NCBI RefSeq assembly: GCF_000503895.1
Contig: NC_022997.1
Span: 2,669,821 to 2,733,820, forward strand
Reading direction: 5' to 3'
Source: Hyphomicrobium nitrativorans NL23
GTDB taxonomy: Bacteria; Pseudomonadota; Alphaproteobacteria; Rhizobiales; Hyphomicrobiaceae
DNA: 64,000 nt
Below are positions 11,533-27,718 of this stretch, piece by piece; positions within the stretch are counted from its first letter, which is position 1, and each line of letters starts with the position of its first letter. Under the pieces are notes generated by a model. It saw only the letters and a program-made list of their open reading frames with translations, was not told where the DNA came from and did not search any database. The position numbers and the translations under genes are program-made.

Positions 11533-12924
11533 ATGGCTCGCGACGTCTCTGCGGGGCAGGCTATCCGTTGGTCTGGCGCTATCGCACTCGGCGGTTTGAT
11601 CACGTTCTCGTCATTCGTTCTTTCCGGCACGGACGCGCAGGCCGGCGGCCTCTCGGTCCGCGAACAGTCCGTTTCCTTCCAGGGAATGTCGTTTGCAGGT
11701 GCCGCTGCCGGCGGAGACCTCAGCTCCAGCTTCTGGAACCCGGCCGCGATGGCGACCGCGGGCTACGGGCTCGCGACGGAAAGCCACTTTTCTCTCATCG
11801 TCGCGGATATCGACGTGCGCGCGGAGAGCGTGAGCGTGTTACCCGGCTCGCTCGTGACGCCCTCGACGACGGCGGTCAACGACGTTTCCAAGATCGATCC
11901 GATCGCTGTCGTCGGTGCCTCATACGCCTCTTGGCGCGTCAACGACGAGTTCGTTTTCGGCCTTTCGATCTCGGCCCCGTTCGGATCACAAAACGACGCC
12001 AGCGATCCCGTGTGGTCGGGACAATACCACTATCGCGCCTCGCAGCTCCTCACCGTCAACGTCAATCCGATCGTTTCGTATCAGATCTCGCCCACGCTTG
12101 CGATCGGCGCAGGTCCGCAGATCCAATACATGCTGCTGAAGGTCAAGGCCAACCCGTCCGGCGCGCTGGCGCCGCCGCAACGCAGGTCGGTCCTCGAAGG
12201 CGACGACATCGGCGTGGGCTTTACGGCCGGCCTTCTTTGGCAGCCCACCCCCGCTACGAGCATCGGTCTCGGATACCGCTCAGCGGTGTCTCACAATATC
12301 GAGGGCGACGCGTCGATGCGCGGCGGAATGCTCGCGACGGGGGGCGGTCTCGGAACTGTCGCCTTCGAGCCTACCGCATTCTCAGCCAAGCTCGAAACAC
12401 CGGAGATGCTCACGCTCAGCGCGCGCCAATCCATCAGCCCAGCCGCTCGTCTTCTGGCGACCGTGGAATGGACGAACTGGAGCCGGCTCGACGAAGTCAA
12501 CTTCATGGCCACCCGCATGGGCGGCATCGCGGCTGGCCCCTTCTCACCGGGCGACAGCGTCAACGTCCTCGATTTCCATTGGGACGATGGATGGTTCTTC
12601 TCACTCGGAGGCGAGTGGGATTATTCGAGCCGGGTTACGTTGCGCGCAGGGGCCGCCTACGAAGTATCGCCCATTCGGCGCGCCACCCAGCGCAAGATCA
12701 ACGTCGCGGACAGCGATCGCATCTGGCTCAGCGCCGGCGCCAGCTATGCGCTCAACGAGACCATGTCCTTCGACGTTGCCTATTCGCACATCATTTTCGA
12801 CGATGCGCCCATCGACTCGCTCACGACCTCGCCCGCCAGCCCGACGACACCCGTGAGGCAGTTCGTCGGGCGCGCCCATCAATCCGCCGACATCGTCTCG
12901 GTCGCGATGAAATCGAAGTGGTGA
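11533..12924 (+). CDS. OmpP1/FadL family outer-membrane transporter
   Basis: This 463-residue protein has an N-terminal signal sequence ending near DAQA-GGLSV. The FadL-type N-terminus follows, with a SFQGMSFAG ... SSSFWNPAAMATA motif, where the NPAA element is diagnostic. The rest reads as amphipathic beta strands, and the C-terminus ends IVSVAMKSKW. AGGGAGAG precedes ATG 11533. The family lets hydrophobic molecules such as fatty acids or aromatics cross the outer membrane. It converges on the ebo operon with only 16 bp between the stops, so a link to ebo cargo is possible but unproven. Confidence 0.88.
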   Translation: MARDVSAGQAIRWSGAIALGGLITFSSFVLSGTDAQAGGLSVREQSVSFQGMSFAGAAAGGDLSSSFWNPAAMATAGYGLATESHFSLIVADIDVRAESVSVLPGSLVTPSTTAVNDVSKIDPIAVVGASYASWRVNDEFVFGLSISAPFGSQNDASDPVWSGQYHYRASQLLTVNVNPIVSYQISPTLAIGAGPQIQYMLLKVKANPSGALAPPQRRSVLEGDDIGVGFTAGLLWQPTPATSIGLGYRSAVSHNIEGDASMRGGMLATGGGLGTVAFEPTAFSAKLETPEMLTLSARQSISPAARLLATVEWTNWSRLDEVNFMATRMGGIAAGPFSPGDSVNVLDFHWDDGWFFSLGGEWDYSSRVTLRAGAAYEVSPIRRATQRKINVADSDRIWLSAGASYALNETMSFDVAYSHIIFDDAPIDSLTTSPASPTTPVRQFVGRAHQSADIVSVAMKSKW

Positions 12925-12940
12925 GGCGACACCCGTTGCC

Positions 12941-13843
12941 TCACTCGTTGCCGGATCCCGACTGCGGCATGCGCGGGGTCTGACCGCCGCGGAGCACGGT
13001 GTTGCCCTGGTAAAGGGTGCGCTGATCGATGGGCTCGGGGGACAGCCAATCCGCTTCCGCCATCTGTCCGCTTTTGCCGTAGACGGCGAGCGCGTTGGCG
13101 TAGGTGACAAGGCGCACGTCTTCGGCGGAGATACCGGAGTCCGCCATCAGCTTCGCGGTCTTCGGCACGGAGAGCGGATCGGACACGCCCCAGTCGCATG
13201 CCGAATCCGCGATCAGGCGCTCCGCGCCGTACGTCTTCACCAGCGCGGCCATGCGTTCGGCCGTCATCTTCGAGTGCGGATAGATCGAGAAGGCCGCCCA
13301 GAAGCCGCGATCCTTCACCTCCTGGATCGTCTCCTCGTTGACGTGATCGATCACGACGCGGGAGGGGTCGAGCTTATGCTCCAGGATGACGTCCATCGAA
13401 CGCGAGGCGCCGCGCTTCTTGTCGCGATGCGGCGTGTGGATCATCACGGGCAGATCGAGATCGCGCGCAAGGTCGAGCTGCAGGCGGAAATATTTGTCTT
13501 CGAGCGCCGTCTGCTCGTCGTAGCCGATCTCGCCGATGGCGACGACGCCCTCCTTCGTGGCAAAGCCGGGCAGGATGTCCATCACCGCCTCGGCAAGCTC
13601 CTCGTTGTTGGCTTCCTTCGAGTTGAGGCCGATGCAGCAATAGTGGCGCACACCGAACTGGCCGGCGCGGAAGCGCTCGAAGCCGAGGATGTGGGAGAGA
13701 TAATCCCTGTAGCTTCCCACGTTGGTGCGCGCTTGCCCGATCCAGAACGCAGGCTCGATGACGGCGACGACGCCGGCTTTCGCCATCGCCTCGTAGTCGT
13801 CGGTGGTGCGGGAGATCATGTGCGCGTGCGGGTCGATGAACAT
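12941..13843 (-). CDS. eboB: EboB: TatD-type metal-dependent hydrolase of the ebo cluster
   Basis: This 300-residue TIM-barrel protein has TatD-like metal ligands: DPHAH at residues 4-8, a Glu in VVAIGEIGYDE, and His in PVMIHTPH and VVIDHVNEET. An Asp in LIADSACDWG completes the set. It is the last gene of the minus-strand ebo operon, 27 bp after eboA. Its true substrate is unknown. In cyanobacteria the ebo genes are needed to move a scytonemin precursor to the periplasm (established for Nostoc). The name rests on sequence type and on this context. Confidence 0.85.
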   Translation of the reverse strand: MFIDPHAHMISRTTDDYEAMAKAGVVAVIEPAFWIGQARTNVGSYRDYLSHILGFERFRAGQFGVRHYCCIGLNSKEANNEELAEAVMDILPGFATKEGVVAIGEIGYDEQTALEDKYFRLQLDLARDLDLPVMIHTPHRDKKRGASRSMDVILEHKLDPSRVVIDHVNEETIQEVKDRGFWAAFSIYPHSKMTAERMAALVKTYGAERLIADSACDWGVSDPLSVPKTAKLMADSGISAEDVRLVTYANALAVYGKSGQMAEADWLSPEPIDQRTLYQGNTVLRGGQTPRMPQSGSGNE

Positions 13844-13870
13844 CGTCGGCTCCGAGGGGTTTTGGTGAGG

Positions 13871-14758
13871 TCAGGCTATATTGTCCCAGAACACGCGGCC
13901 GGATTGGACCGTCTCTGCGAGTTCCGGTGCGGTGGCGAGTGCGGCACGCGCCGACGGCACGGGGCAATCGTTGAGCGCGAGGGCTGCGCCTTTGCGTTCG
14001 GCGTCGGTTCCGGCACGAAGAATGTCGCCAAGCGTTGCGACTTCCGCTTCACCCGCGAAGGGCGCCACGCAGCGCCACAACTCCGGCGAGATCGCGCGGC
14101 CCGCGGCGCGGCGCTCGGCGGCGTAGTCTATCAGCATCCGCGCGAGATCCGGATTGCGGCGCGCGTCGAGCCCTTGGATCGGGCAGAGACGGCTTTCGAT
14201 GAACAGGGCTTTGACGACCATCTGGTTCCACTGCGCCTCGCTGAACTGCTCGCGAGGATAGGGATTGCGATGCGCAACCGCTTCGAAGATGGGCTGCATC
14301 GCCGAGCGCACGCCCTCGGCGGCGCGATGCAAGATGCGTTGCGGAGCCGGATAGAGCGGAAGGCCGCGCAGAAGCGCGATCTGCTCGCCGATTTCCGCAG
14401 CAGCGAGAACACGGTCGAGGCTCACTACGAATTGCTCGTCGTCGCCGCGATGGCTTGCAAGCGCGAGCAGAATGCGCGCCGCCTGATCGACGCTCCAGCC
14501 CGTGGCGTCGAGACCTTCACGCACAGTGCGTCCCGCCTCGGCCTCGTCCGTCGTGAGGTCGAGATCGGTCTTGCCGACCTTGCGCGGTGCGAGACCGACG
14601 GCGATGGCCAGTTGCATCGGTTTTTCTCCCGACGCGATGATCGCAAGCTGGGAAGCGAGCCACGCGGCGGCGTCGGACGTCAGGCGTGGCGCGAGCCACG
14701 CGTTAAGCAGTTGCATGGCCTTTTCGGCTTCGATGGTCTGAGAAGGAAATGCCGTCAT
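13871..14758 (-). CDS. eboA: EboA domain protein
   Basis: This 295-residue protein lacks membrane segments and is rich in Ala, Leu and Arg helices. It matches the EboA family in order and style: LNAWLAPRLTSDAAAWLASQ near the N-terminus, and WNQMVVKALFIESRLCPIQG followed by the RRNPDLARMLIDYAAERRAAGR block. EboA has no assigned biochemical activity. It lies 10 bp after eboC and 27 bp before eboB. The sole basis for function is the cluster role in metabolite export. Confidence 0.85.
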   Translation of the reverse strand: MTAFPSQTIEAEKAMQLLNAWLAPRLTSDAAAWLASQLAIIASGEKPMQLAIAVGLAPRKVGKTDLDLTTDEAEAGRTVREGLDATGWSVDQAARILLALASHRGDDEQFVVSLDRVLAAAEIGEQIALLRGLPLYPAPQRILHRAAEGVRSAMQPIFEAVAHRNPYPREQFSEAQWNQMVVKALFIESRLCPIQGLDARRNPDLARMLIDYAAERRAAGRAISPELWRCVAPFAGEAEVATLGDILRAGTDAERKGAALALNDCPVPSARAALATAPELAETVQSGRVFWDNIA

Positions 14759-14768
14759 GCGCTCAGCC

Positions 14769-15617
14769 TCACGTGCCTGGAACGATGCGCTGCAACGCCA
14801 ATGTCAGGGCGAACAGCCCAACACAGATCATCGCCATCGTCGCGTTGCCGTGGGCTGCTGACACGACGCCATCGACGAGGGCGATGGCCGCGATCAGAAG
14901 CCCGACCGAACGCTCGCGCCGCTCCGCCGCGCCCGATCTCAGACCGCCCACAGCCAGGATAATAACCGCAGCCGCGCCAGCCGCCATGAGCAGGCTCAAG
15001 GAATTAACCTCGCCGCTGGCGAGCGCGACGCCGATCGGGAGCAAGAGGAGCAGGACCGGCCAGTGCGGCACCGCGGAACGCGCGCCTGCGCCGCGGGCGA
15101 CGAGGCTCAATCCCGCGACATAGGCCAGGAGCGCGAGAGCCGCCGCGATCACGGGCGCAGAGAGAGCGGCCCCTGCCGCCAGCACCGTCGCGATGTAGAC
15201 GAGCGCGCGGCAAAGCCCCATCACCAGCGGCGCGAACGCATAGCCCTTGTGCCACGCATCGTAGATCAGAATTGCGCCCGCGAGCGCCACCGCCGCGCTT
15301 GCGCTCCTGCCGCCGAAGCTTGCCAGCATGGCCACGCCCAGCGCGAGCAAAGCAAGCCCCACGGCCCACGCAGTGGCGGGCGCGGCATCGCCCGCGGGCA
15401 GCGGACGTTCGGGCCGCTCGCGCGCATCGATTTCGCGGTCGAAGGCGTCGTTGAGGATCATGCCGCCGGAGTAAAGCGCGGACATGGCGACGAGCACCAT
15501 GGCCAGACTCGGGCTCGCGAGGCCGCCAGCGAGAACGGACGCCGCGAGCACGTTGCTCCAGACGGTCGGCAGGTTGGAAACACGAGCAAGGCGCACGAGC
15601 GCCACGATGGCCCTCAC
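14769..15617 (-). CDS. eboC: EboC: UbiA-like membrane protein
   Basis: This 282-residue protein has about eight transmembrane segments and the first Asp motif of UbiA prenyltransferases, NDAFDREIDARERPERPLPA. The second Asp-rich motif of classic UbiA enzymes is replaced by YDAWHKGYAF. The GTG start at 15617 overlaps the eboE stop as GTGA, so the two are coupled; this gives a normal UbiA length. A longer reading upstream would only be the eboE gene in another frame. The protein may prenylate a metabolite or serve as a membrane carrier. The Idi gene in the opposite unit could supply its isoprenoid donor (inference). Confidence 0.87.
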   Translation of the reverse strand: MRAIVALVRLARVSNLPTVWSNVLAASVLAGGLASPSLAMVLVAMSALYSGGMILNDAFDREIDARERPERPLPAGDAAPATAWAVGLALLALGVAMLASFGGRSASAAVALAGAILIYDAWHKGYAFAPLVMGLCRALVYIATVLAAGAALSAPVIAAALALLAYVAGLSLVARGAGARSAVPHWPVLLLLLPIGVALASGEVNSLSLLMAAGAAAVIILAVGGLRSGAAERRERSVGLLIAAIALVDGVVSAAHGNATMAMICVGLFALTLALQRIVPGT

Positions 15618-16813
15618 GCGCCGAGCTCCGTCCGCACCCAGGCAAGCTCGCGGACGATGTCGCCAACAAGCTCCGGCGATTTCACCGCGTCGGGAAGCAC
15701 GCTCCAGGTGTAGGTCTCCACTTCCAGATGAGGCGAGACCGCACGCCGGCGGCAGAGCGCCAACGCGTCGCGGAGGTTCTGCTGTGTGGCTTCCAGCGCC
15801 TCGAAGCGATCGAGGAAGACCGGCACATGACAATGCACGCGCCATTCTCCGCCCGCTTCGCCACGGCGGGCCGCGCCGAACGCGTCTGGAAGATCGAGAT
15901 GGCGCGTGATCGCCTCGCCGTTCCGCTCCACCGTCTGGTGCAGATAAATGCCATCGTCGAAGCGTCCGAGCAGCCGCTCGAAGTGCGCCGCCTCTCCGGT
16001 CGTACGAAGCGCGGAGCTGAGTTGAAGCTTCGCGACCGTAATGCCCGCAGCGTGGACCGCATCGAGCATTGGGATCGTGTCCTCGAACGCCACGGCCGAA
16101 TGGCAGACGTCGAAACAGAGGCCGACGTGCCGGCGGAGACGCGCGTCGGCATCGTGCGGAGAAGCCCCTGCGAGGCGTGCGAACAGATCTGCCGCCGGGC
16201 CGCGCAAGAGATACTCCTCGATGAAACGCACCGCCTCTTGCGTCGTCTCCATGAAGCACGCGGGCTCCGGCTCGATGGCGAGCGTGATCGTTTTTCCTGT
16301 CCGCAGACGGATACCGTCGAGGTGGGCTGCGGTGCGCGCATATCCCTCGGCAACGCGCGCGATGTCGGCGGGCGCCGCGATGTTAGTGCGAAAGCCACCC
16401 GGGACGGTGCTGATGCTGGCGTCCATGCCATCGGGTGCGAGATCGGCCAGGAGGTCCGCGACGCGGCAGGTGAAGCCGAGCCGTTCGGGCGTGCGCCAAT
16501 CCGGCTCGTAGACCCGCTCCTTGACGCGGGCGCCGTGGAAATTTCCGTAGGGAAAGGCATTGATGGTGAAGACGTAGAGATCGTGGATGCGCAGAAAGCG
16601 CTTGAAGCGTTCCCGCAGCGCGGGTGCCGCCAGTTCTCCTGCCGCCTGCGCCGATAGCCTGAGGCCCACGCCCATCGCACGGTCGGGCGATATGCCAGCC
16701 TTGACGCGCGGGAGCGCATCGCAAAGCGCCGTTTCAATCTCGCTCCAGGTCTCTCCGGCGTGAATATTCGTGCAGTACGTGAGGTGGGGGTTGCCGGGAA
16801 GCGCAAGCTGCAT
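15614..16813 (-). CDS. eboE: EboE: xylose-isomerase-like metabolite traffic protein
   Basis: This 399-residue TIM-barrel protein belongs to the sugar phosphate isomerase/epimerase superfamily. It begins MQLALPGNPHLTYCTNIHAG, a typical EboE opening. It contains LAIEPEPACF, VGLCFDVCHSAVAFED and the closing LEVETYTWSVLP, which hold the likely metal ligands (Glu, Asp, His, Glu). ATG 16813 overlaps the eboD stop by one base (TAATG). An upstream start would add 9 residues. It acts with the other Ebo proteins in moving or finishing an unknown metabolite. Confidence 0.88.
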   Translation of the reverse strand: MQLALPGNPHLTYCTNIHAGETWSEIETALCDALPRVKAGISPDRAMGVGLRLSAQAAGELAAPALRERFKRFLRIHDLYVFTINAFPYGNFHGARVKERVYEPDWRTPERLGFTCRVADLLADLAPDGMDASISTVPGGFRTNIAAPADIARVAEGYARTAAHLDGIRLRTGKTITLAIEPEPACFMETTQEAVRFIEEYLLRGPAADLFARLAGASPHDADARLRRHVGLCFDVCHSAVAFEDTIPMLDAVHAAGITVAKLQLSSALRTTGEAAHFERLLGRFDDGIYLHQTVERNGEAITRHLDLPDAFGAARRGEAGGEWRVHCHVPVFLDRFEALEATQQNLRDALALCRRRAVSPHLEVETYTWSVLPDAVKSPELVGDIVRELAWVRTELGA

Positions 16814-18024
16814 TAGACGCGCGCTCCCCCGCGCAGCCACGCCATCGCCTCACCGATCAGCGTCTCGTCCATCGTGTGCACCTCGACGCCCGTACCGAGG
16901 GCGGACAGGAGCGTGATGGTGAGTTCACCGCCGAGATGCTCGCGGAACTCCTGCAATCCCTTCATCAGCTTGCGGCGATCGTTCTCGTCGCGAAGCTCGC
17001 ACGCCGGATGCCACAGCGCGAAGCCGAGCCGCGTCAGCAGCCGCGCCACGCGCACATCGTCGCCTTCCGGCAGGAGGCCCGCAAGAACGGAATAGCGTGT
17101 GTCGAGCGCGATGCCGATGGCCACCGCCTCGCCATGGCGCAGTTCGTAGTTCGAGAGCACTTCGAGCTTGTGGGCCGCCCAGTGGCCGAAATCGAGCGGA
17201 CGCACGCTGCCGCGCTCGAACGGGTCGCCGCCGTGGGCGATCTGGCGCATGTGGAGAAGCGCGCAATGGCGGATCAGCTTTTCCAGCGGCTCCGACGCGA
17301 ACAGCGCGAGCGCTTCCGCTTTCTCTTCCAGCCACTCGAAGAACGCGCGGTCGCGGATCAGCGCGACCTTGACCGCCTCAGCCATGCCCGCACGCTTTTC
17401 GCGGCCGGGCAGAACGTCGATGAATGCGGAATCGTTGACGACGGCATCCGGAGGCACAAACGTGCCAAGCATATTCTTGGCGCCGAACGCGTTGATGCCG
17501 TTCTTTACGCCGACGCCGGAATCGTTCTGTGCCAGGACAGTGGTCGGGACGCGGATATGGCGAATGCCGCGATGCGTCGTCGCCGCAGCGTATCCCACGA
17601 GATCGAGCATCGCACCGCCGCCGATGCCAACGACATAGGAATGGCGATCAAGGTTTCGCGCGACGAAACCGCGCTGAAGAGCGGTCAGCAGAGACGGATC
17701 GTTTTTTGCCGCTTCGCCGCCCGCGATTTCGATGATCGGACCGGCGAGCGTGAGCCCGTCGTACACCGCGACGTAGTCCGCGATCCGCTTGGCGAGATCC
17801 GGCATTTCCCGCACAACGCCCTCATCCACCACGAAATTCACGCGGGTCTCGACTCCGCGAGAGCGGGCCGAGATCAATTCAGAAAGGATCGCGTTTGAGG
17901 GCGCGAAAACATCCCTGGTGAACGCAACGGGGAATTCATAGGACACAGAAAATTTCTGCGAGAAAACGAGTTGATTCACATTCGATTCAATTGCCGGAAG
18001 CGCGAATGCTGCATTAATCGACAC
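16813..18024 (-). CDS. eboD: EboD: 3-dehydroquinate synthase-like cyclase
   Basis: This 403-residue protein belongs to the sugar phosphate cyclase superfamily. It has an NAD-binding GIGGGAMLDLVGY loop (about residues 133-145). Zinc ligands are likely Glu216 (AGMAEAVK), His281 (LDFGHWAAH) and His297 (LRHGEAVAIG). The NDSGVGVKNGINAFGAKNML block resembles the sedoheptulose-phosphate and EboD group more than housekeeping AroB. It is the first gene of the minus-strand ebo operon and overlaps eboE. The product is likely a cyclic polyol or cyclitol-like compound (inference). Confidence 0.87.
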   Translation of the reverse strand: MSINAAFALPAIESNVNQLVFSQKFSVSYEFPVAFTRDVFAPSNAILSELISARSRGVETRVNFVVDEGVVREMPDLAKRIADYVAVYDGLTLAGPIIEIAGGEAAKNDPSLLTALQRGFVARNLDRHSYVVGIGGGAMLDLVGYAAATTHRGIRHIRVPTTVLAQNDSGVGVKNGINAFGAKNMLGTFVPPDAVVNDSAFIDVLPGREKRAGMAEAVKVALIRDRAFFEWLEEKAEALALFASEPLEKLIRHCALLHMRQIAHGGDPFERGSVRPLDFGHWAAHKLEVLSNYELRHGEAVAIGIALDTRYSVLAGLLPEGDDVRVARLLTRLGFALWHPACELRDENDRRKLMKGLQEFREHLGGELTITLLSALGTGVEVHTMDETLIGEAMAWLRGGARV

Positions 18025-18527
18025 CGTTTCGTTTCCCCATGAAGACAGTTCCGTCGCGGTCTTGAGCGACCATTCGGGAATTATTCTTGTTAACTTCGGG
18101 ATAATCGCCCGATTGATCGAAACGCGCCCCCTCAGGGACGCGCTTTGATTTCAAATCTGCGCCAAACGGCGCTGTCTGGCAACCGCAGTCACGTTTCGAG
18201 CACCTTCGAGCCACGTCTGGGACAGGGCGTTCGAGCGGCTTCACGGCCGGGTGCATCGCGACATTATGGCCTGCTTCCCGCCTTTTGCGGGAATATATTG
18301 CAATTAACGCCGCGACTATTTCCTATTTTCCTATCTAGGCACATTTTTCAACTTTTCTTGATTGACGGCATAAATGAAGTGGTTGCTCTATTTCGAGCGG
18401 CCGATAGTTTCGATGGCGCTCGGGTTGCTTTTTGGCTGCGCCTGAAATTTGCGCAACGCAGCAAAGTCCGCTGTCGCACAAATAGAAACTTAGCTGCCAA
18501 ATCAAACTTGAATGGGAGAACGTCCAA
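18025..18527. promoter_or_regulatory. Divergent control region between the two ebo units
   Basis: This 503-bp stretch separates eboD (minus) from the PQQ dehydrogenase gene (plus). I see no gene in it. It is AT-richer than its surroundings, for example around 18300-18365, where promoters could lie. I could not identify a convincing operator or sigma-70 pair. GGGAGA upstream of 18528 is the ribosome site of the dehydrogenase gene. Confidence 0.5.
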
Positions 18528-19955
18528 ATGCGAATGCGGTTTATTACATCCGCGTCGGTGTTGGCGGCGGGCTTCTTCGCTGCGGGGTCGATGATCGCCG
18601 TAGCGCAGGAAGTTCCGAAAGAGGCCAGCGAAGTCGCGCGGCCCGGGGGCAAGCTCCCCGGCGATCCTAAAATCGCGCTGGTGAAGGTTGCAGACGGCTT
18701 CCTCGATCCCGTGGGCGTGTCGTCCGCGTTCGACGGGACGGGCCGCATCTTCGTTGTCGAGCGCCAAGGCACGATCCGGGTCGTGAACAAGGACGGCTCC
18801 GTCAACGAGAAGCCTTTCCTCGACCTCACGAAGAACAGCCCGCTCGGAAGCGAAGTCCAGACCGGGTTCGTGGAACAGGGCCTCTGGGCCATAGCATTCC
18901 ATCCGAAGTTCAAGGAGAACGGGCACTTCTTCGTCAGCTACGCATCGCTGCCGTTCAACGGAGCGCACATCATCGCGCGCTATACCGTCGATCCTGCGAG
19001 CCCTGACGAAGTGACCGTCGAGCACGCCAACAAGACCGTCAAGGTCATCATGAATATCCCGCAGCCCTACTACAATCACTACGGCGGCGGCATTCAGTTC
19101 GGCCCCGATGGCTTCCTTTACATCGGCAAGGGCGACGCCGGCTGGGAAGGCGATCCGCTCGACGCCGGCCAACGCAAAGACGTGCTGTGGGGCAAGATGC
19201 TCCGCATCGATATCGACGTCGACGATAGCGAGATGCACGCCTACAACGTGCCGAGAGAAAACCCCTGGGCAACCGCCTGGCAGGATCGCATGATGACGCT
19301 CTTCGGCATCACCGAAGAGGGCTTCTCCAAGATCCACATGGGCGCTCGCCCCGAATCGTGGGCCTACGGCCTGCGTAACCCCTACGCCTTCCACTTCAAC
19401 AAGAAGACGGGCGACCTCTTCATCGCAGACGTGGGCCAGAACCACTGGGAAGAGATCAACTGGCAGCCCGCCTCCAGCAAGGGTGGCGAGAACTACGGCT
19501 GGAAGCACAACATGGGCACGCACTGCCATCCGGCAACGGGCCCGAACGACGTGTGTCCGCAGGTCGGCGTGCTCCCGGTCTCCGAGTATCCGCACCAGGA
19601 ACCCTATCCGGGCGCTGAAAAGCTCACGGAAGGCTGGGGCTGCTCGGTCCAGGGACTTGGCGTGGCCAACTACGCCGGCATGGACGGCGTGTACCTGACC
19701 GGCGACTGGTGCTCGGGCCGCGTGTTCGCCACCGGCTGGGACGGAAGCAAGTGGCAGCTCCAGGAGCTGGCGCAGACCGACCTGCAGTTCACGGCCGGTA
19801 ACAACGACGAGGACGGCACCGTTCTCGCCGTGAACTGCAACTGCTTCTACCTCGACGACAAGGGTGCTGCGGCCAACCCGCCGGGCGCACTGTGGAAGAT
19901 CGTTGCCGCCGACGCGGTGCCGGAAGGCGCCGAGACGGCTCGCATGAAGCAGTAA
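18528..19955 (+). CDS. PQQ-dependent sugar dehydrogenase (soluble, periplasmic)
   Basis: This 475-residue protein has a signal peptide cut near SMIAVAQ-EVPK. It is a six-bladed propeller of the aldose dehydrogenase (YliI/GdhB) type. Family features are FLDPVGVSSAFDGTGRIFV (N-terminal), the catalytic His in NHYGGGIQFGPDGFLYIG, the following GDAGWEGDPLDAGQ loop, and WAYGLRNPYAF. The family oxidises aldose sugars with PQQ and passes electrons to a carrier. The next gene encodes a c-type cytochrome, which fits. No PQQ synthesis gene is in the window. It opens the unit that carries eboF and idi. Confidence 0.87.
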   Translation: MRMRFITSASVLAAGFFAAGSMIAVAQEVPKEASEVARPGGKLPGDPKIALVKVADGFLDPVGVSSAFDGTGRIFVVERQGTIRVVNKDGSVNEKPFLDLTKNSPLGSEVQTGFVEQGLWAIAFHPKFKENGHFFVSYASLPFNGAHIIARYTVDPASPDEVTVEHANKTVKVIMNIPQPYYNHYGGGIQFGPDGFLYIGKGDAGWEGDPLDAGQRKDVLWGKMLRIDIDVDDSEMHAYNVPRENPWATAWQDRMMTLFGITEEGFSKIHMGARPESWAYGLRNPYAFHFNKKTGDLFIADVGQNHWEEINWQPASSKGGENYGWKHNMGTHCHPATGPNDVCPQVGVLPVSEYPHQEPYPGAEKLTEGWGCSVQGLGVANYAGMDGVYLTGDWCSGRVFATGWDGSKWQLQELAQTDLQFTAGNNDEDGTVLAVNCNCFYLDDKGAAANPPGALWKIVAADAVPEGAETARMKQ

Positions 19956-19997
19956 AGATCTAGGCGATGCTCATGAGCACGCCCATATGAGAGACAA

Positions 19998-20061
19998 GGA
20001 AGGCCCTCACGCCAGCCGGCAGGGGGCCTTCCCGTCTTCGACGCGCTGCCTTCGGCGCGTC
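19998..20061. terminator. Two hairpins between the dehydrogenase and cytochrome genes
   Basis: GGAAGGCCC (19998-20006) pairs with GGGCCTTCC (20024-20032). Right after it, GACGCGC (20040-20046) pairs with GCGCGTC (20055-20061) around a TTCG-containing loop. No T run follows, so these may stabilise or attenuate the transcript rather than end it. They could lower expression of the downstream cytochrome-eboF-idi genes. Confidence 0.5.
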
Positions 20062-20112
20062 TTGCAGACCATGTCTCCGGCATGAGACACCATCCAAGCG
20101 AGCAACCACGAC

Positions 20113-20592
20113 ATGACCCTGAAATCGCGCCTCTTCCCGCTTCGTCCGGCTCTGTTTGCGGCCGCCTTCATGGTGCCTGCCGTGACGATGTCGCTTGCGC
20201 CTCCCGCGATGGCCGAGATCGAATTCCGCCACGCGCTCGACAACTCGCCGCTCGACCTCGCGCCGATCAAGGGCGAGGAGATTACCGCGGCGGTCGAAGC
20301 CTTCCGCAAGGACGGCGTTAATCCCTATAACGGCGACGCCGACGCCATCGCAGCCGGCAAAACGCTTTACAACGACAATTGCCAAGCCTGTCACAAGCCG
20401 GACGGCTCGGGCGGAATGGGGCCGAGCCTTATCGACGACGTCTACATCAACAAGCGCGCCAACACGGACGTCGGCGTTTTCGAGATCATCCATTCTGGGT
20501 CGTCGGGCGCCATGCGTTCGTTTTCGATCCGTGGCGTCACGCAAGACCAGATCCTCAAGATGATCGCGTACATTCACACGTTGAAGAAGTAA
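20113..20592 (+). CDS. Periplasmic c-type cytochrome
   Basis: This 159-residue protein has a signal peptide ending near PAMA-EIEFR. One haem-binding site, CQACH, lies at residues 90-94, and a likely axial Met is in GSSGAMRSFS. It is a mono-haem class I cytochrome domain. It lies directly after the PQQ dehydrogenase and just before eboF, whose first possible ATG overlaps its stop. The likely job is to accept electrons from the dehydrogenase. Confidence 0.9.
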   Translation: MTLKSRLFPLRPALFAAAFMVPAVTMSLAPPAMAEIEFRHALDNSPLDLAPIKGEEITAAVEAFRKDGVNPYNGDADAIAAGKTLYNDNCQACHKPDGSGGMGPSLIDDVYINKRANTDVGVFEIIHSGSSGAMRSFSIRGVTQDQILKMIAYIHTLKK

Positions 20593-20615
20593 TGCCGCCA
20601 GGAGGCTGGCCGGCA

Positions 20616-21992
20616 ATGCATCCCACCGTGGTGATCAATGTCGTCGGGCTCACACCGAGCCTGATGGGACAGCACATGCCGCGGCTCTCGCGCTTTGCGG
20701 CCGAGGGCGCGAGCAGACGGCTCGATACGGTCACGCCCGCCGTCACCTGCGCCGCACAAGCCACGTTCGTTACCGGGCTTGCGCCACGCGATCACGGCAT
20801 CGTCGGCAACGGCTGGCTGTTTCGCGAGTTGATGGAAGTCTGGCTCTGGCGGCAATCCAACCGGCTGGTCGCAGGAGAGGCGATCTGGGAGGCCGCGAAA
20901 AAGCGCGATCCAAGTTTCACCTCCGCCAACCTGTTCTGGTGGTATGCGATGGGGGCTTCGACGGACGTCACGGTGACGCCGCGTCCGATCTATAAAGCCG
21001 ACGGACGCAAACTGCCCGACTGCTGGTCCGACCCGCCCGACCTGCGCGACGAGTTGCAGGACAAGCTCGGCACCTTCCCTCTCTTTCAATTCTGGGGACC
21101 GGCGACGTCGATCGCTTCGAGCCGATGGATCGCGGATGCGGCCAAGCATGTCCTTGCGACGCGCGATCCGACGCTTACGCTCGTCTACCTGCCGCACCTC
21201 GACTATGCGCTTCAGCGCTTCGGGCCGGACGATCCGGCGATTGCGCCAGACCTTGCGGAGATCGATGCCGTCAGCGGCGATCTCATCGAAGCTGCGAACG
21301 CTCTCGGACGGCGCGTCGTGGTGCTCTCCGAATACGGCATTGTGCCGGTACGTCAACCCGTACATATCAATCGCGCGCTTCGCGCCGCACGGCTCCTCTC
21401 CGTGCGCGATGAGCAGGGCGGCGAAATTCTCGACATCCCGCGCTGCCGAGCGTTCGCCGTCGCCGATCATCAAGTGGCCCACGTGTATGTCCGCGACGAC
21501 CGTGACATCCCCACGGTTCGCGGGCTACTGGCCGACCTCGCGGGGGTCGATCGCGTGCTCGAGCGCGCGGAGCAAAGCGCTTTCGGCCTCGATCACGAAC
21601 GCTCCGGCGAACTGGTCGCGATCTCGGCGCCCGACGCCTGGTTCACGTATTACTACTGGCTCGACGACGCGCGTGCGCCGGACTTCGCGCACACCGTTGA
21701 GATCCACCGCAAGCCGGGCTACGATCCCGTTGAGCTCTTTCTCGATCCAACCATCCGCTTTCCCAAGCTCTCGATAGGCTGGCGCCTTTTCAAGAAGATG
21801 CTGGGGTTGCGGACGCTGATGGACGTCATCCCGCTTGATGCCACGCTCGTCAAAGGCTCGCACGGGCGCTCAGATACGCCGGAGCACCACAGCCCGGTGT
21901 TCCTATCCTCCGCCCCGCACCTGGTTCCTGAAGAGCCGGTCGACGCGCGCGACGTCAAGGCGCTCATCCTGTCCCACCTTTTCGAAGCGTGA
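20616..21992 (+). CDS. eboF: EboF-like alkaline phosphatase superfamily protein (nucleotide pyrophosphatase type)
   Basis: This 458-residue protein belongs to the nucleotide pyrophosphatase/phosphodiesterase group of the alkaline phosphatase superfamily. The N-terminal region reads INVVGLTPSLMG and TPAVTCAAQATFVTGLAPRD, the usual place of the nucleophilic Thr. Later come LPHLDYALQRFGPD, VVLSEYGIVP and KGSHGR. Usual metal-binding Asp and Asp-His positions read as VVGL and SEYG, so metal binding may differ. ATG 20616 is preferred because AGGAGG lies at 20600-20605; an ATG at 20592 overlaps the cytochrome stop. Its identity as EboF rests on type and on the nearby eboABCDE. No signal peptide is visible. 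Confidence 0.75.
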   Translation: MHPTVVINVVGLTPSLMGQHMPRLSRFAAEGASRRLDTVTPAVTCAAQATFVTGLAPRDHGIVGNGWLFRELMEVWLWRQSNRLVAGEAIWEAAKKRDPSFTSANLFWWYAMGASTDVTVTPRPIYKADGRKLPDCWSDPPDLRDELQDKLGTFPLFQFWGPATSIASSRWIADAAKHVLATRDPTLTLVYLPHLDYALQRFGPDDPAIAPDLAEIDAVSGDLIEAANALGRRVVVLSEYGIVPVRQPVHINRALRAARLLSVRDEQGGEILDIPRCRAFAVADHQVAHVYVRDDRDIPTVRGLLADLAGVDRVLERAEQSAFGLDHERSGELVAISAPDAWFTYYYWLDDARAPDFAHTVEIHRKPGYDPVELFLDPTIRFPKLSIGWRLFKKMLGLRTLMDVIPLDATLVKGSHGRSDTPEHHSPVFLSSAPHLVPEEPVDARDVKALILSHLFEA

Positions 21993-22002
21993 GCATTCTG
22001 CA

Positions 22003-22581
22003 ATGGCATCCTCATCCGAACGCGTCATCCTGATCGACGAGAGAGACCGCGAAATCGGCAGCGCGGAGAAGATCGACGTCCATCGGAGAGGGCTATTGCA
22101 TCGCGCGTTTTCGGTCGTGGTCTGGGATGCCTCAGGCCGGCAGCTTCTGCAGAAGCGCGCCGACGCGAAGTATCATTCGGGCGGCCTTTGGACGAACACG
22201 TGTTGCGGCCATCCGCGTCCTGGCGAGCCCGTCGCGGACGCAGCCGCACGGCGGCTCGAAGAAGAGATGGGCTTCACCAGCCCGCTCGAATGGCTGGGTG
22301 TCGTCGGATACCGTGCCGACGTCGGCAACGATCTGATCGAGCACGAAATCGTGCATGTTTTCCGCGCGCGCTACGACGGCGCCGTCGTGCCGGATCCCGC
22401 CGAGGTCGAAGACTACAAATGGTGCGGGCTCGACAGTATTCAGCGCGATGTCGCGGCCTCGCCCCATCAATTCACGGCGTGGTTCGTGCGCTATGTGGCA
22501 GAGGAATGGCCCGTCGCACTCATGCCGCCGGAGAACGCCGAACGGATCCCCTCCACGACGCAGAAAAGGGTGCAACGATGA
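22003..22581 (+). CDS. idi: Isopentenyl-diphosphate delta-isomerase, type I
   Basis: This 192-residue Nudix-fold enzyme interconverts IPP and DMAPP in the cytoplasm. The active-site Cys is in TNTCCGHP (Cys68), and acidic residues are in LIEHEIVHVF (Glu113/115). The Nudix-like stretch is AAARRLEEEMGF. Its length matches bacterial type I enzymes. It follows eboF by 10 bp and overlaps the GAF gene as ATGA. It would raise DMAPP or IPP for a prenyl step, perhaps with EboC, or for hopanoids or carotenoids (inference). Confidence 0.93.
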   Translation: MASSSERVILIDERDREIGSAEKIDVHRRGLLHRAFSVVVWDASGRQLLQKRADAKYHSGGLWTNTCCGHPRPGEPVADAAARRLEEEMGFTSPLEWLGVVGYRADVGNDLIEHEIVHVFRARYDGAVVPDPAEVEDYKWCGLDSIQRDVAASPHQFTAWFVRYVAEEWPVALMPPENAERIPSTTQKRVQR

Positions 22582-23036
22582 AGACGCGCGGAAACGGAGC
22601 GCAGGAACCGAGCGGTCTCGATCTCATCCGCATCGTTTCCGATTTCGCGGCCGACAGCGGGACCATTCATTTCCTGGGAGAGGATGGCCTCTTGCATCTC
22701 GCCGCCGCCACCCCCGGCATTCCGGACGTCGTTCTCGCCACCATCCGCACGATTCCGGTCGGAAAGGGCATGGCTGGGCTTGCCGTCGAGCGGAAAGCTC
22801 CCGTCAACGCCTGCAACCTTCAAACCGATACCAGCGGCGATGTCCGAGCTGGCGCAAAGGCCACGGGGCTCGCAGGTTCGATCGTCGTTCCGATTTTCGA
22901 CGGCGATGCGGCCGTGGGCGCTTTGGGCGTGGCCAACCGCGCGGAGCGCACGTTCAAGGACGACGAGATCGCGCGGCTGATCGAGGAAGGACGCCGGCTG
23001 GCTACGGCGCGTACGAGCCTCTCCGGCAAGAATTGA
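22578..23036 (+). CDS. GAF domain protein
   Basis: This 152-residue protein is essentially one GAF domain. It reads LDLIRIVSDFAADSGTIHFLGED at the start, VGKGMAGLAVERKAPVNACN in the middle and a C-terminal IVVPIFDGDAAVGALGVANR core. Such lone GAF proteins bind small ligands or act as free-standing sensors. It overlaps idi by four bases (ATGA), so it shares that operon. The ligand is unknown. Confidence 0.8.
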   Translation: MKTRGNGAQEPSGLDLIRIVSDFAADSGTIHFLGEDGLLHLAAATPGIPDVVLATIRTIPVGKGMAGLAVERKAPVNACNLQTDTSGDVRAGAKATGLAGSIVVPIFDGDAAVGALGVANRAERTFKDDEIARLIEEGRRLATARTSLSGKN

Positions 23037-23047
23037 GAAGATCCGCG

Positions 23048-23767
23048 ATGACGCGCCCCACAGCGAGCACCGTCGAACCCGAGACAGGACGCGCGTTTCC
23101 GTCGAGACGTCGGGGTGCGAACCGGCGGCGGATCGCAAAACTGACTGCGCTTGCCGTGGCTATGCTAGCCGTCGTGATCGTTCCGTTTCTTCTTTTCGGA
23201 GACCCGCTGGATTCCTTCGCCCGCGATGCGATGGCGAGCGCATCGTATTGGCCTCTTGCCGGCGCATTCGGATTTCTCCTGCTGGCTGCGGACGTCGTGC
23301 TTCCCATTCCCTCGACGGTCGTGATCGCTCTCCTCGGCGGATGGTTCGGCGCCTTAACCGGCACGCTCGTCGCCGCGGGCGGACTGACGCTCGGCTGTGC
23401 CATCGGCTATTGGCTCGGCAAGCGCTTCGGCTTCGACTTCGCGGAACGCACCATCGGACGCGAGGATCTGGCCGCCGTCTCGACCTGGTTCGAACGCCAC
23501 GGTGTGCTCGTGCTCGCGTTCTGCCGGCCTGTGCCCGTGCTCGCTGAAGCGAGCGTCATCGCGGCAGGCGTGGCGAACCTTCCGGCACGCAAGGTTCTCA
23601 TCGTCACGACGCTCGCCAATATCGGCTTTGCCGCCGTGTATGCGCTCATCGGCGCGCGTGTTGAGAGCGGCGTGGAATTTCTGGCGGCACTTGCGGCGTC
23701 CATCGCTCTTCCGGGAGCCGCCATGCTGGGCGCGAGGGCATGGCGGCGGCGCACGGCGACGCCCTGA
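23048..23767 (+). CDS. VTT/DedA-type membrane protein
   Basis: This 239-residue protein has a basic N-terminus and five or six transmembrane segments. It contains the SNARE-associated (VTT) motif GALTGTLVAAGGLTLGCAIGYWLGKRFG and a later FCRPVPVLAEASVIAAG element typical of the family. Relatives include DedA proteins and eukaryotic lipid scramblases such as VMP1 and TMEM41B. It closes the PQQ-cytochrome-eboF-idi unit. Possible roles include lipid or undecaprenyl-phosphate flipping, but there is no direct evidence here. Confidence 0.85.
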   Translation: MTRPTASTVEPETGRAFPSRRRGANRRRIAKLTALAVAMLAVVIVPFLLFGDPLDSFARDAMASASYWPLAGAFGFLLLAADVVLPIPSTVVIALLGGWFGALTGTLVAAGGLTLGCAIGYWLGKRFGFDFAERTIGREDLAAVSTWFERHGVLVLAFCRPVPVLAEASVIAAGVANLPARKVLIVTTLANIGFAAVYALIGARVESGVEFLAALAASIALPGAAMLGARAWRRRTATP

Positions 23768-23788
23768 TGCGCAAAATCGCGTTTGGAT

Positions 23789-24133
23789 CTAAAATCGATC
23801 CTCGGTCACGCTGCCGATGCCTGGGTCTGGAACGACCGCCGAGCGGCGCACGAACACGATAGAGCTATCGCTGCGCTGGACTCTCATGTGGTCGTTGAAC
23901 CCCACGCCGATCTCAGGCTGGTCGATCAGGCGTTCCCCGGAATAGAGCACCGCGCATCCCTCAGGCGGCGGCCCGCTTGCCTCGTGCTGCGTTTGGCTCT
24001 GCTCGAACGCGACCAACGCCGCGCGATCCTGGCATCCGAGAACGCCGGAAGATTTGACCATCCACACGTTCTCCGCAGCAGCCGGAGAGGAGATCGCAAG
24101 GATGGCGGAAAAAACAAGTGCGCGACGGAGCAT
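23789..24133 (-). CDS. Secreted protein of unknown function
   Basis: This 114-residue protein begins MLRRALVFSAILAISSPAAA, a clear signal peptide, and then shows no known domain. It has two Cys (GVLGCQDRAAL and GCAVLYSG) that may form a disulfide. It could also start 27 bases further upstream. It lies just downstream of the VTT gene on the other strand. I do not recognise the family. Confidence 0.6.
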   Translation of the reverse strand: MLRRALVFSAILAISSPAAAENVWMVKSSGVLGCQDRAALVAFEQSQTQHEASGPPPEGCAVLYSGERLIDQPEIGVGFNDHMRVQRSDSSIVFVRRSAVVPDPGIGSVTEDRF

Positions 24134-24296
24134 GGGCCGACCTCTCGCAAACGGCGTCAAAGCTTTTGCGAAGGGATGGCGCGCTCAGTCGCCGTGCGCA
24201 AGCGCGAGCACGGCGCGCGCGGATAAACTCCGCGTGAACGCCGCGGGAGGGACGCAAGAGACCGCCTGCCTCTCGCACCCTGCCCCTTCTCGCGCC

Positions 24297-24815
24297 CTAC
24301 CGGGAAAGTTCGCCGCGAAGCGCATCGAAGCGGGCAACCTGATCGGCAATCAGATTGCGCGCTTCGTCCCGGCGTACGAAGATCTTGAACATCGCCTCGC
24401 CGTCCTCGCTGAAGAACTGGACCGAGCGGGACTCGCGCCCCATGAAGGGGCGAGAGACGAACGCGATCGTCTTGCAGCCTTCGGCGCGGATATGCCCGCC
24501 GATGGGGCTGTCGCCGTGGATGTTGTAGTACCCGCGGCCGAACGTTCCCGGCGGAAGCACGCCCTCGCATTCGAGAACGATGTGGCGCGTGTGCACGATG
24601 AACAGGATCGCTCCCCACTCGCCGATTGCCGCCATCACGTCGGCGAAGCGTGTGCCATCGACGAGCGCGCGGTGCTCGCCAGGGAGCGCCCGAACGACAT
24701 CGAGCGTGCTTACGCCGTACTCGGCCGCGATCTGCTCCAGGATGCCATCGGCGTTCCGGGCGAGACGCTCGGCCAGCGGCGGACGAGGCGACGCGGTCTC
24801 AGAGGTCCCGGTCAT
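24297..24815 (-). CDS. hutX: HutX/HuvX-type haem utilisation protein
   Basis: This 172-residue cytosolic protein matches the HutX/ChuX family of haem carrier proteins. The C-terminal half holds the expected stretch VLECEGVLPPGTFGRGYYNI, followed by HGDSPIGGHIRAEGCKTIAF and then FMGRESRSVQFFS. The start MTGTSETA is placed 5 bp after the monooxygenase gene; a longer reading would include that gene in another frame. It would take or store haem brought in by the nearby receptor and HmuTUV. Regulation by iron is likely but no box was found. Confidence 0.88.
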   Translation of the reverse strand: MTGTSETASPRPPLAERLARNADGILEQIAAEYGVSTLDVVRALPGEHRALVDGTRFADVMAAIGEWGAILFIVHTRHIVLECEGVLPPGTFGRGYYNIHGDSPIGGHIRAEGCKTIAFVSRPFMGRESRSVQFFSEDGEAMFKIFVRRDEARNLIADQVARFDALRGELSR

Positions 24816-24820
24816 GCCGC

Positions 24821-25159
24821 TTATGCCGCAACGACGCGTTTTCCGTCGGACGTGACGGTTTGCAGCACTGTGAAGCCTTCGAACTCGGGATGGCCCTGGT
24901 AGAGCGGCTTGCTGCCGCCGGCGCCCGAGTGGGCCTTCCGGAACTGCTCGGATTTCGTCCATGCCTCGAAATCGGCGTGGGAGCGCCAGATCGTGTGCGA
25001 GGAATAGAGCACGTAATCTTCCCGCTCGGGGCCCTTCAGGAGATGAAATTCGACGAACCCGTCGAGTTCATCAAGGTGCGTCTCGCGCGACAGCCAAACG
25101 TTCTCGAAATCCTTCTCCGAACCTTTAAGCACCTTGAAGCGGTTCATTGCGATGAACAT
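24821..25159 (-). CDS. Haem-degrading monooxygenase of the IsdG/HmuQ type
   Basis: This 112-residue single antibiotic-biosynthesis-monooxygenase-fold domain reads FIAMNRFKVLKGSEKDFENV and then SRETHLDELDGFVEFHLL, followed by a YSSHTIWRSHADFEAW stretch. The MNRF, HLDE and WRSH features fit IsdG-like haem oxygenases such as the HmuQ/HmuD proteins of Bradyrhizobium. It lies in the haem receptor operon, directly before hutX. It is expected to cleave haem in the cytoplasm and free iron. The distinction between HmuQ and HmuD cannot be made here. Confidence 0.83.
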   Translation of the reverse strand: MFIAMNRFKVLKGSEKDFENVWLSRETHLDELDGFVEFHLLKGPEREDYVLYSSHTIWRSHADFEAWTKSEQFRKAHSGAGGSKPLYQGHPEFEGFTVLQTVTSDGKRVVAA

Positions 25160-25252
25160 TGGAACTTTCTCCTCACACTGGAACAGGCGGGACCGCGGCC
25201 GACATTGTCGCTGGCCGCGGCTCCCTATTCTTTCGCCGCCGGAGCGGTCCGT

Positions 25253-27487: not shown

Positions 27488-27682
27488 ATCAAGAGAACTC
27501 CAATGTAGTCCCGGCTTGCACCTGTCGCGCCCGCTTAAACGCAGGCTTCACAGCAGGTGTCCCTTCGGACCGATCAACCCGAACGCCAGGGCACGGGCCT
27601 CCCGATCCGCGTCCGACTTGCTATCCGTATATTTCCTGATTATTTTCGTCAATATTGGCGGATCACGATTTCCATGGGTGTT

Positions 27683-27702
27683 GCAGATTGATCGCAATCT
27701 GC
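27683..27702. promoter_or_regulatory. Perfect 8+8 palindrome ahead of hmuT
   Basis: GCAGATTG (27683-27690) is repeated in inverted order as CAATCTGC (27695-27702) around ATCG. It ends 16 bases before the hmuT ATG. It could be an operator for the divergent haem genes or an RNA hairpin hiding the ribosome site. It does not match Fur, RirA or Irr boxes that I know. The rest of the 231-bp region is AT-rich near 27620-27660, with no clear -35/-10 pair. Confidence 0.5.
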
Positions 27703-27718
27703 CGCGGCCCTGCTCCGC

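Follow-up and report, generated by a model that had tools for sequence, protein, structure and literature searches.

A predicted secreted GSDH-family propeller and its cytochrome c recur with the ebo genes in Hyphomicrobium nitrativorans and its relatives

The ebo cluster, a eustigmatophyte and bacterial operon, has been argued to make an isoprenoid-cyclitol compound (Yurchenko et al., 2016, PMC5133447). In Nostoc, each ebo gene that Klicki et al. (2018) deleted (A, B, C, E, and F) was needed for scytonemin, and the ebo mutants and a scyE mutant accumulated the same scytonemin monomer, which lay in the cytoplasm alone in the ebo mutants and in both compartments in the scyE mutant; ebo is required there for the monomer to reach the periplasm, where ScyE is located (PMC6282210). 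An EboC-type enzyme, Ubi-297, farnesylates quinoline acids in vitro in membrane fractions (PMC9235831). Here we analyzed a 64,000-nucleotide stretch of the Hyphomicrobium nitrativorans NL23 genome (NC_022997.1, positions 2,669,821 to 2,733,820; hereafter the window), a genome that consists of a single contig of 3,653,837 bases. In the window the ebo genes lie beside genes for a putatively secreted GSDH-family beta-propeller, which we named GSDH1, and a c-type cytochrome, and the link of this pair to ebo is very probably functional.

All six genes, eboA to eboF, are clustered at 12941-23767, as in the known ebo cluster (PMC5133447). Five of them (eboB-A-C-E-D) are contiguous and co-directional on the minus strand, running eboD, eboE, eboC, eboA, eboB from 18024 down to 12941 with intergene gaps of −28 to +27 bp. 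NCBIfam scores are over the cut-off for EboE and for the EboA domain, and under the family cut-off for EboA and EboC. Unlike in the known cluster, eboF is detached into a divergent unit on the plus strand (18528-23767), in the order GSDH1, cytochrome c, eboF, idi, GAF, and VTT/DedA. GSDH1 and the cytochrome gene are 157 bp apart, and from the cytochrome through VTT the spacing is −4 to +23 bp. Profile matches to each family confirmed the whole gene set that a preliminary description of this DNA had listed.

Two other described systems are close to this locus. The scytonemin cluster of Nostoc resembles it in that ebo acts with a secreted periplasmic protein, ScyE, thought to perform an oxidative step (PMC6282210); the window differs in having no recognized scyA-C type genes and in having a GSDH-family partner with its own cytochrome c, and likeness to ScyE is limited to a Bradyrhizobium-type partner, where it is weak. 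The EDB cluster of Pseudomonas fluorescens NZI7 likewise combines a full ebo cluster with other open reading frames (ORFs) that carry signal peptides (as described in PMC6282210). The terms 'PQQ' (pyrroloquinoline quinone), 'cytochrome', 'idi', and 'TMEM220' are absent from the main text of PMC5133447 (the supplement was outside the comparison), and among the papers listed in searches of the open-licence ebo literature none described GSDH, a cytochrome, or idi with ebo. The core of the locus is the known ebo cluster; what is new is the coupling of propeller and cytochrome to it and the altered propeller.

We analyzed 199 genomes of the order, calling EboE by NF035939 and close GSDH1 orthologues by sequence search. 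EboE was present in 11 genomes and a close GSDH1 orthologue in 8 (identity 62-100%, E ≤ 3.3e-198; the next-best match had 36% and 8.8e-51). GSDH1 occurred in 8 of the 11 EboE-positive genomes versus none of the 188 EboE-negative ones (Fisher p = 3e-12, ignoring relatedness). Genomes of the same family without EboE (G001, G053, G152) had no close GSDH1 orthologue. One EboE-positive genome, G102, is probably not an ebo genome, because no other ebo gene lies within 9.5 kb upstream of its EboE, the contig ends 0.3 kb downstream, and the neighbors are of the type seen around solitary EboE genes. The remaining 10 all carry a GSDH-cytochrome pair at ebo. In seven (G000, the window genome, and G090, G124, G177, G108, G157, G167) GSDH1 and a cytochrome resembling MoxG stand at the ebo locus; a propeller distant from GSDH1, named GSDH2, stands with a diheme cytochrome in G013, G098, G108, G157, and G181, in the last case on the contig carrying eboB. 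In G098, GSDH1 and its cytochrome lie on a different contig from ebo, so GSDH1 and ebo co-occur even without adjacency.

We also examined a second order (186 genomes), picked because one member carries GSDH1. GSDH1 was found in 1 genome and EboE in 3, and none of the 183 EboE-negative genomes had GSDH1. A class-wide search of 385 genomes (E ≤ 1e-60) returned GSDH1 from the window genome only; this search is uninformative, since EboE itself is rare (3 of 398 genomes of a phylum sample) and was not searched for in those 385.

To place the locus among bacteria at large, we used a collection of 84,980 species genomes and, of at least 593 pattern matches (at least 587 confirmed), kept the 80 highest-scoring EboE loci, so that relatives of the query are over-represented. 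With the window and 14 hand-picked stretches of the order and phylum around EboE and GSDH hits, the set came to 95 loci; a fifteenth stretch, L059, with a GSDH gene away from ebo, was excluded from the counts. Neighbors were counted with family profiles built from the same loci, so that sensitivity is partly circular, and gene order was sorted by ORF start, which may swap overlapping neighbors (L060 was verified by tblastn). The nearest named EboE relative among the best 80 of the at least 593 matches came from an uncultured Hyphomicrobium (71% identity). Near-duplicates by EboE were L046/L061 (95%) and L066/L073 (93%).

eboD and eboE occurred together in 64 of the 95 loci, accompanied by eboA in 54, eboB in 53, eboC in 57, and eboF in 56. 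GSDH1 was present in 13 of these 64, and the MoxG-like cytochrome in the identical 13; GSDH2 was found in 16, a diheme cytochrome in 12, and the two as a pair in 12. Idi was counted in 13 loci, VTT in 7, GAF in 3, and TMEM220 in 20. The genome search proposed in the preliminary description thus recovered GSDH1 with its cytochrome in 13 of 64 loci, and eboF-idi after the cytochrome in 5. In L060 (Hyphomicrobium RBC040) the order of the window is repeated, GSDH1-cytochrome-eboF-idi-GAF opposite eboD-E-C-A-B, and past GAF the likeness to VTT is limited to a 41-residue stretch. L061 (Hyphomicrobium D-2), L045, and L046 keep the window order as far as idi. In 7 of the 13 linked GSDH1 loci (the window, L045, L046, L047, L053, L060, L061), eboF comes directly after the cytochrome in the same orientation, and in 5 of those 7 idi comes next. 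The arrangement was found in families other than that of the window, and the GSDH1-cytochrome pair is retained through differing gene orders. In a quick phylogeny built from 65 EboE sequences, no fewer than 7 changes are required for GSDH1 and 12 for the GSDH2 pair; the tree is rough, with 22 of 62 inner branches weak, and its well-supported branches force only 5 changes for GSDH1 (GSDH1 versus GSDH2 rows). These counts suggest repeated gain, loss, or transfer more than a single inheritance. Co-occurrence in the order and recurrence across loci rule out chance adjacency of GSDH1 and ebo. The preliminary description had allowed for a coincidence of position, should the arrangement be unique to this genome and the dehydrogenase be kept in relatives without ebo; the outcome was the opposite on both counts. 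Its linking of ebo with a secreted member of the GSDH family and the accompanying cytochrome is borne out.

Three ebo loci carry a third type of secreted protein beside a CXXCH protein. In the Bradyrhizobium loci L066 and L073 (12817-14938), eboA is followed by genes for a secreted protein of 547 residues and a cytochrome of the c type; the Geminicoccaceae ebo locus L067 (3282-5432) has a relative of this protein next to a CXXCH-bearing ORF. The L073 protein had no Pfam match; its only NCBIfam match was the ScyD/ScyE family NF033206, at 27 bits versus a cut-off of 80, and comparison with the GSDH profile covered only 56 columns. ScyE is presumably a propeller itself. On these sequence matches, the likeness of the Bradyrhizobium protein to ScyE is weakly suggested, a lead and not proof. 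The window GSDH1 gave no match to NF033206. We set aside the 'sorbosone dehydrogenase' of Klicki et al., which serves there only as a marker protein of the periplasm (PMC6282210).

GSDH1 (18528-19955, plus strand) has a hydrophobic, signal-like N-terminal stretch, recognized by eye, and is a probable oxidoreductase of the GSDH family (PF07995, 92.9 bits). Its predicted structure (predicted local distance difference test score 84, predicted template modeling score 0.87) has the GSDH fold. In Foldseek comparisons of this model, HHIP, which is also the closest solved structure by sequence, was the best match (E 1.1e-24), followed by an apo PQQ sugar dehydrogenase (3a9g, E 1.3e-17) and soluble glucose dehydrogenase (sGDH; 1c9u, E 4.8e-17). 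GSDH1 is about 100 residues longer than E. coli YliI (475 versus 371). YliI with PQQ bound shows an additional absorption maximum at 430 nm (PMC13088180).

We read the active-site residues from an alignment to YliI that held 14 GSDH1 rows, 17 GSDH2 rows (one a fragment), and 22 GSDH-family control loci of the order. Arg406 of sGDH we take to be the partner of Arg408 in the R-x-R that holds the PQQ carboxylates. In sGDH, PQQ is held by Lys377 and Arg408, among others, and His144 is the catalytic residue (PMC6881789). Like YliI/Asd and sGDH, GSDH1 retains the catalytic His and the Arg-Asn pair at the PQQ quinone, in 14 of 14 rows; unlike in these enzymes, neither Arg of the R-x-R is present in any of the 14, the residues there being Gln (once Met) and Thr. 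Among the GSDH2 rows none has both Arg and one has a single Arg, whereas both are present in 14 of the 22 controls. The eight controls lacking both comprise two ebo-linked GSDH2 and six with no link to ebo, so loss of the Arg pair is a trait of a wider GSDH branch and is not specific to ebo. The Lys equivalent to Lys377, at the C-7 carboxylate of PQQ, is replaced by Cys in all 14 GSDH1; yet only 4 of the 22 controls have Lys, and we dropped it as a PQQ marker.

PqqC and PqqE both scored over cut-off in 9 of the 14 GSDH1 genomes and both were absent from the other 5 (G108, G098, G157, and the hosts of L085 and L111), some of which are drafts. E. coli uses external PQQ and does not make it, so missing synthesis alone proves nothing. 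Taken together, the loss of both Arg, the similarity to HHIP, and the hosts without pqq genes make a normal PQQ role for GSDH1 doubtful. The ordinary PQQ sugar dehydrogenase assumed in the preliminary description is therefore not supported; 'PQQ-type' describes the family name only. This suggests that the label 'PQQ sugar dehydrogenase', when assigned by family matching, is unsafe for the GSDH1 branch.

The cytochrome gene (20113-20592, plus strand) encodes a c-type cytochrome with one CXXCH (PF13442) and, by eye, a hydrophobic signal-like N-terminus. All 14 GSDH1 copies seen, the 13 linked ones and the one of the unlinked L050, have it as a neighbor, which sets GSDH1 apart from YliI. Like cytochrome cL (MoxG/XoxG), it has a single CXXCH and matches TIGR03872, at 93 bits in the window and 93-106 bits in the four MoxG-like cytochromes scanned, under the equivalog cut-off of 147.8. 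By these scores the cytochrome is related to cytochrome cL and is not a member of that group; in contrast to cytochrome cL, it has no methanol dehydrogenase neighbor in the ebo unit.

Because the pairing recurs in many relatives, the propeller-cytochrome pair is probably part of how ebo works. We propose, at somewhat under an even chance, that the ebo cluster is coupled to a periplasmic oxidation module in which the ebo product or its cargo is oxidized. In the cytoplasm, EboD, with EboE and EboB, would build a ring of the cyclitol type out of a sugar phosphate, and EboC would attach a prenyl chain, with Idi helping to supply the prenyl donor. The prenylated product would sit in the inner membrane, and the product, or a cargo that it carries, would then move to the periplasmic side, perhaps with help from a VTT/DedA or TMEM220 protein. 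Once in the periplasm, product or cargo would be oxidized by secreted GSDH1, with the electrons going to the neighboring cytochrome c and from there into respiration. What we infer are the cyclitol lipid and its flipping, a single plus-strand transcript, and the oxidation step; export of a prenylated metabolite, also envisaged in the preliminary description, would follow by analogy with published ebo work.

Several observations weigh against this proposal. No ebo metabolite is known, and Klicki et al. did not see a lipid conjugate of the scytonemin monomer (PMC6282210). A propeller-cytochrome pair was found in 15 of 30 Pseudomonadota ebo loci, a similarity-biased set with some short contigs, and in none of 23 loci of other phyla, 3 of which have a GSDH2-like gene without the diheme cytochrome (collection loci with EboE plus two or more of A, B, C, D, and F; 27 of the 80 dropped; phylum taken from record titles). 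Oxidation therefore cannot be the core function of ebo. In the second order, GSDH1 is missing from two of the three EboE-positive genomes. Nor is GSDH2 confined to ebo, since GSDH-family matches (E < 1e-20) also lie away from ebo, including in genomes without EboE, and GSDH2-like proteins occur in EboE-less genomes such as G002, G015, G140, G158, and G182. None of the transporter families searched for is present in all clusters (VTT in 7 and TMEM220 in 20 of 64), and idi appears to be recruited. GSDH1 may also be no enzyme, as HHIP, its nearest solved relative, is a binding protein.

Other explanations were weighed. It is possible, though on the unlikely side, that an ebo lipid carrier brings a different metabolite into the periplasm, in line with the scytonemin proposal, and that this cargo, not the ebo product, is what the pair oxidizes. 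The differing compartments of the monomer in ebo and scyE mutants are its precedent (PMC6282210), and different propeller-cytochrome pairs at different ebo loci would fit different cargos; however, no cargo-making genes were recognized in the ebo unit of the window or among the annotated recurring neighbor families (not all are annotated), and a single substrate is suggested by the occurrence of one GSDH1 family across several alphaproteobacterial families. If GSDH1 had instead lost its cofactor and become a periplasmic protein that binds or chaperones the ebo lipid without enzymatic activity, similar to HHIP, with the cytochrome serving another partner, then the best sequence and fold match to HHIP and the missing Arg pair in 14 of 14 GSDH1 would be expected. 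We regard this as improbable, given that the catalytic His and Arg-Asn are kept throughout, although the His is also kept in HHIP, and that a cytochrome akin to those of quinoprotein methanol dehydrogenases stands beside GSDH1 in the 13 linked loci and L050.

A bolder idea, to which we give little credence, is that the ebo product is a new redox compound bound to the membrane, a prenylated cyclitol of enolone- or quinone-like character, which replaces PQQ in secreted propeller oxidoreductases or shuttles electrons for them. It would explain why His and Arg-Asn are kept while the Arg pair is lost, why cytochromes and idi stand at the pairs, why PQQ synthesis is missing from 5 of 14 hosts, and why in Nostoc one and the same compound accumulates in ebo and scyE mutants; against it, those mutants differ in where the compound is located, and the Arg pair is also lost in GSDH relatives without ebo. 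Least probable in our view is that GSDH1 is an ordinary PQQ sugar dehydrogenase with unusual PQQ binding, co-inherited with ebo on a genomic island with no functional link. Nine of 14 hosts do have PqqC and PqqE, fungal AA12 enzymes bind PQQ by a partly different residue set (PMC6881789), and GSDH1 distances correlate at 0.69-0.85 with those of EboA, B, D, and E over 13 loci, a comparison with no background control. Yet GSDH1 without EboE occurs in none of 188 genomes of the order and none of 183 of the second order, which was chosen for its GSDH1 member; the pair is kept across gene orders and persists unlinked in G098, and 5 of 14 hosts are without both pqq genes. The ebo cluster is spread across many phyla and even algal plastids, and a recurring periplasmic partner gives a handle on it: the product could be sought as a compound that changes upon loss of the propeller or its cytochrome.

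Downstream of the cytochrome lie eboF and idi. eboF (20616-21992, plus strand) encodes a type I phosphodiesterase/alkaline-phosphatase-like protein (PF01663, 224.5 bits) with 39-74% identity to EboF elsewhere. idi (22003-22581, plus strand) encodes a type I isopentenyl-diphosphate isomerase, over cut-off for both PRK03759 (177 bits, cut-off 127) and TIGR02150 (118 bits, cut-off 105.8). An idi match (E ≤ 0.001) was present in 42 of the 199 genomes of the order, comprising 9 of 11 EboE-positive and 33 of 188 EboE-negative genomes, and scored over cut-off in 24, of which 5 are EboE-positive. The idi in the ebo unit is the sole idi match of the window genome, while in G177 idi lies far from ebo. 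Enrichment at ebo and a place inside the unit fit a need for prenyl donors. Since idi occurs within ebo clusters of several families and also matches in those 33 genomes, we consider it recruited; as a specific ebo partner it is not supported. The earlier view of idi as part of the system thus stands as to its place in the cluster and its enrichment, and not as to specificity.

The last two genes of the unit encode a GAF-domain protein (22578-23036, plus strand; PF13185) and a VTT/DedA membrane protein (23048-23767, plus strand). By eye, no signal-like N-terminus was seen in EboF, Idi, or the GAF protein. GAF adjoins idi in L060 and L053 too, and in the seven loci that have it, VTT lies by eboB, by eboA, or at the end of a neighboring unit. 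Both had been assigned to the unit beforehand; they are indeed present in the window, and among the 64 loci they are as infrequent as the counts above indicate. The VTT protein has the domain (PF09335, 69 bits), and its likeness to the undecaprenyl-phosphate transporter UptA is weak (NF052604, 42 bits, far under the cut-off of 250). A TMEM220-family membrane protein (PF15071, named after the human protein), not present in the window, mostly adjoins eboD or eboA. It was found in 5 of the 199 genomes of the order, all EboE-positive and each with the gene about 1.4 kb from eboE; the 20 ebo loci are L048, L049, L052, L054, L055, L069, L072, L074, L075, L080, L085, L109, and L111, and in Bacteroidota L115, L120, L122, L125, L126, L129, and L137. 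Among the papers listed in our searches of the open-licence literature, none concerned a TMEM220-ebo link.

On the minus strand, eboD (16813-18024) encodes a sugar phosphate cyclase of the 3-dehydroquinate-synthase superfamily (PRK06203, 564 bits; PF01761, DHQ_synthase; PF24621), and eboE (15614-16840) a xylose-isomerase-like TIM barrel (NF035939, 435 bits, cut-off 250). eboC (14769-15617) encodes a UbiA-superfamily prenyltransferase (PF01040, 61.8 bits; NF035940, 130 bits, cut-off 250); its start is probably a GTG that overlaps the eboE stop, and the profile scans used 14769-15614. eboA (13871-14758) reached 247 bits for NF035937 (cut-off 320) and 157 bits for the EboA domain NF035938 (cut-off 50). 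eboB (12941-13843) encodes a TatD/metallo-hydrolase family protein (PF01026, 66.9 bits) with 44-93% identity to EboB of other ebo loci. The divergent operons are separated by 503 bp (18025-18527), where promoters are expected and none was recognized; a promoter scan of 12700-24300 gave a sole promoter-like match at 21697, no more than chance, and neither a terminator scan nor Rfam yielded anything informative for the ebo locus.

The survey gave some further observations. EboE-like proteins without other ebo genes were seen in loci such as L092, L098, L102 (NF035939, 396 bits), and L113, with an ABC importer, alcohol dehydrogenase, GFO/IDH, E1/transketolase, and glyoxalase as neighbors. Such a solitary EboE is probably a catabolic paralogue, for which the name 'metabolite traffic protein' would be wrong. 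Two of these loci, L110 and L134, bear the surprising titles of Akkermansia muciniphila and Bifidobacterium breve metagenome-assembled genomes. In L062 (2451-3666, a Methyloceanibacter marginalis draft), eboD is spread over two ORFs, by draft error or decay. A ferritin-like protein, PF12902, which we take to be of the VioB type, lies near eboD in L127 (7469-8530) and L082 (5167-6210), from Chromobacterium and a Sulfitobacter metagenome-assembled genome.

Beyond the ebo unit, the window has haem uptake genes at 24297-28672: HutX and an ABM-family monooxygenase, from profile matches, together with a TonB receptor and a periplasmic binding protein, from a reading of the ORF list. On the other side, the ORF list gives for 9314-11265 a GGDEF protein with an EAL-like continuation in another reading frame, resembling a GGDEF-EAL gene broken near 10900.

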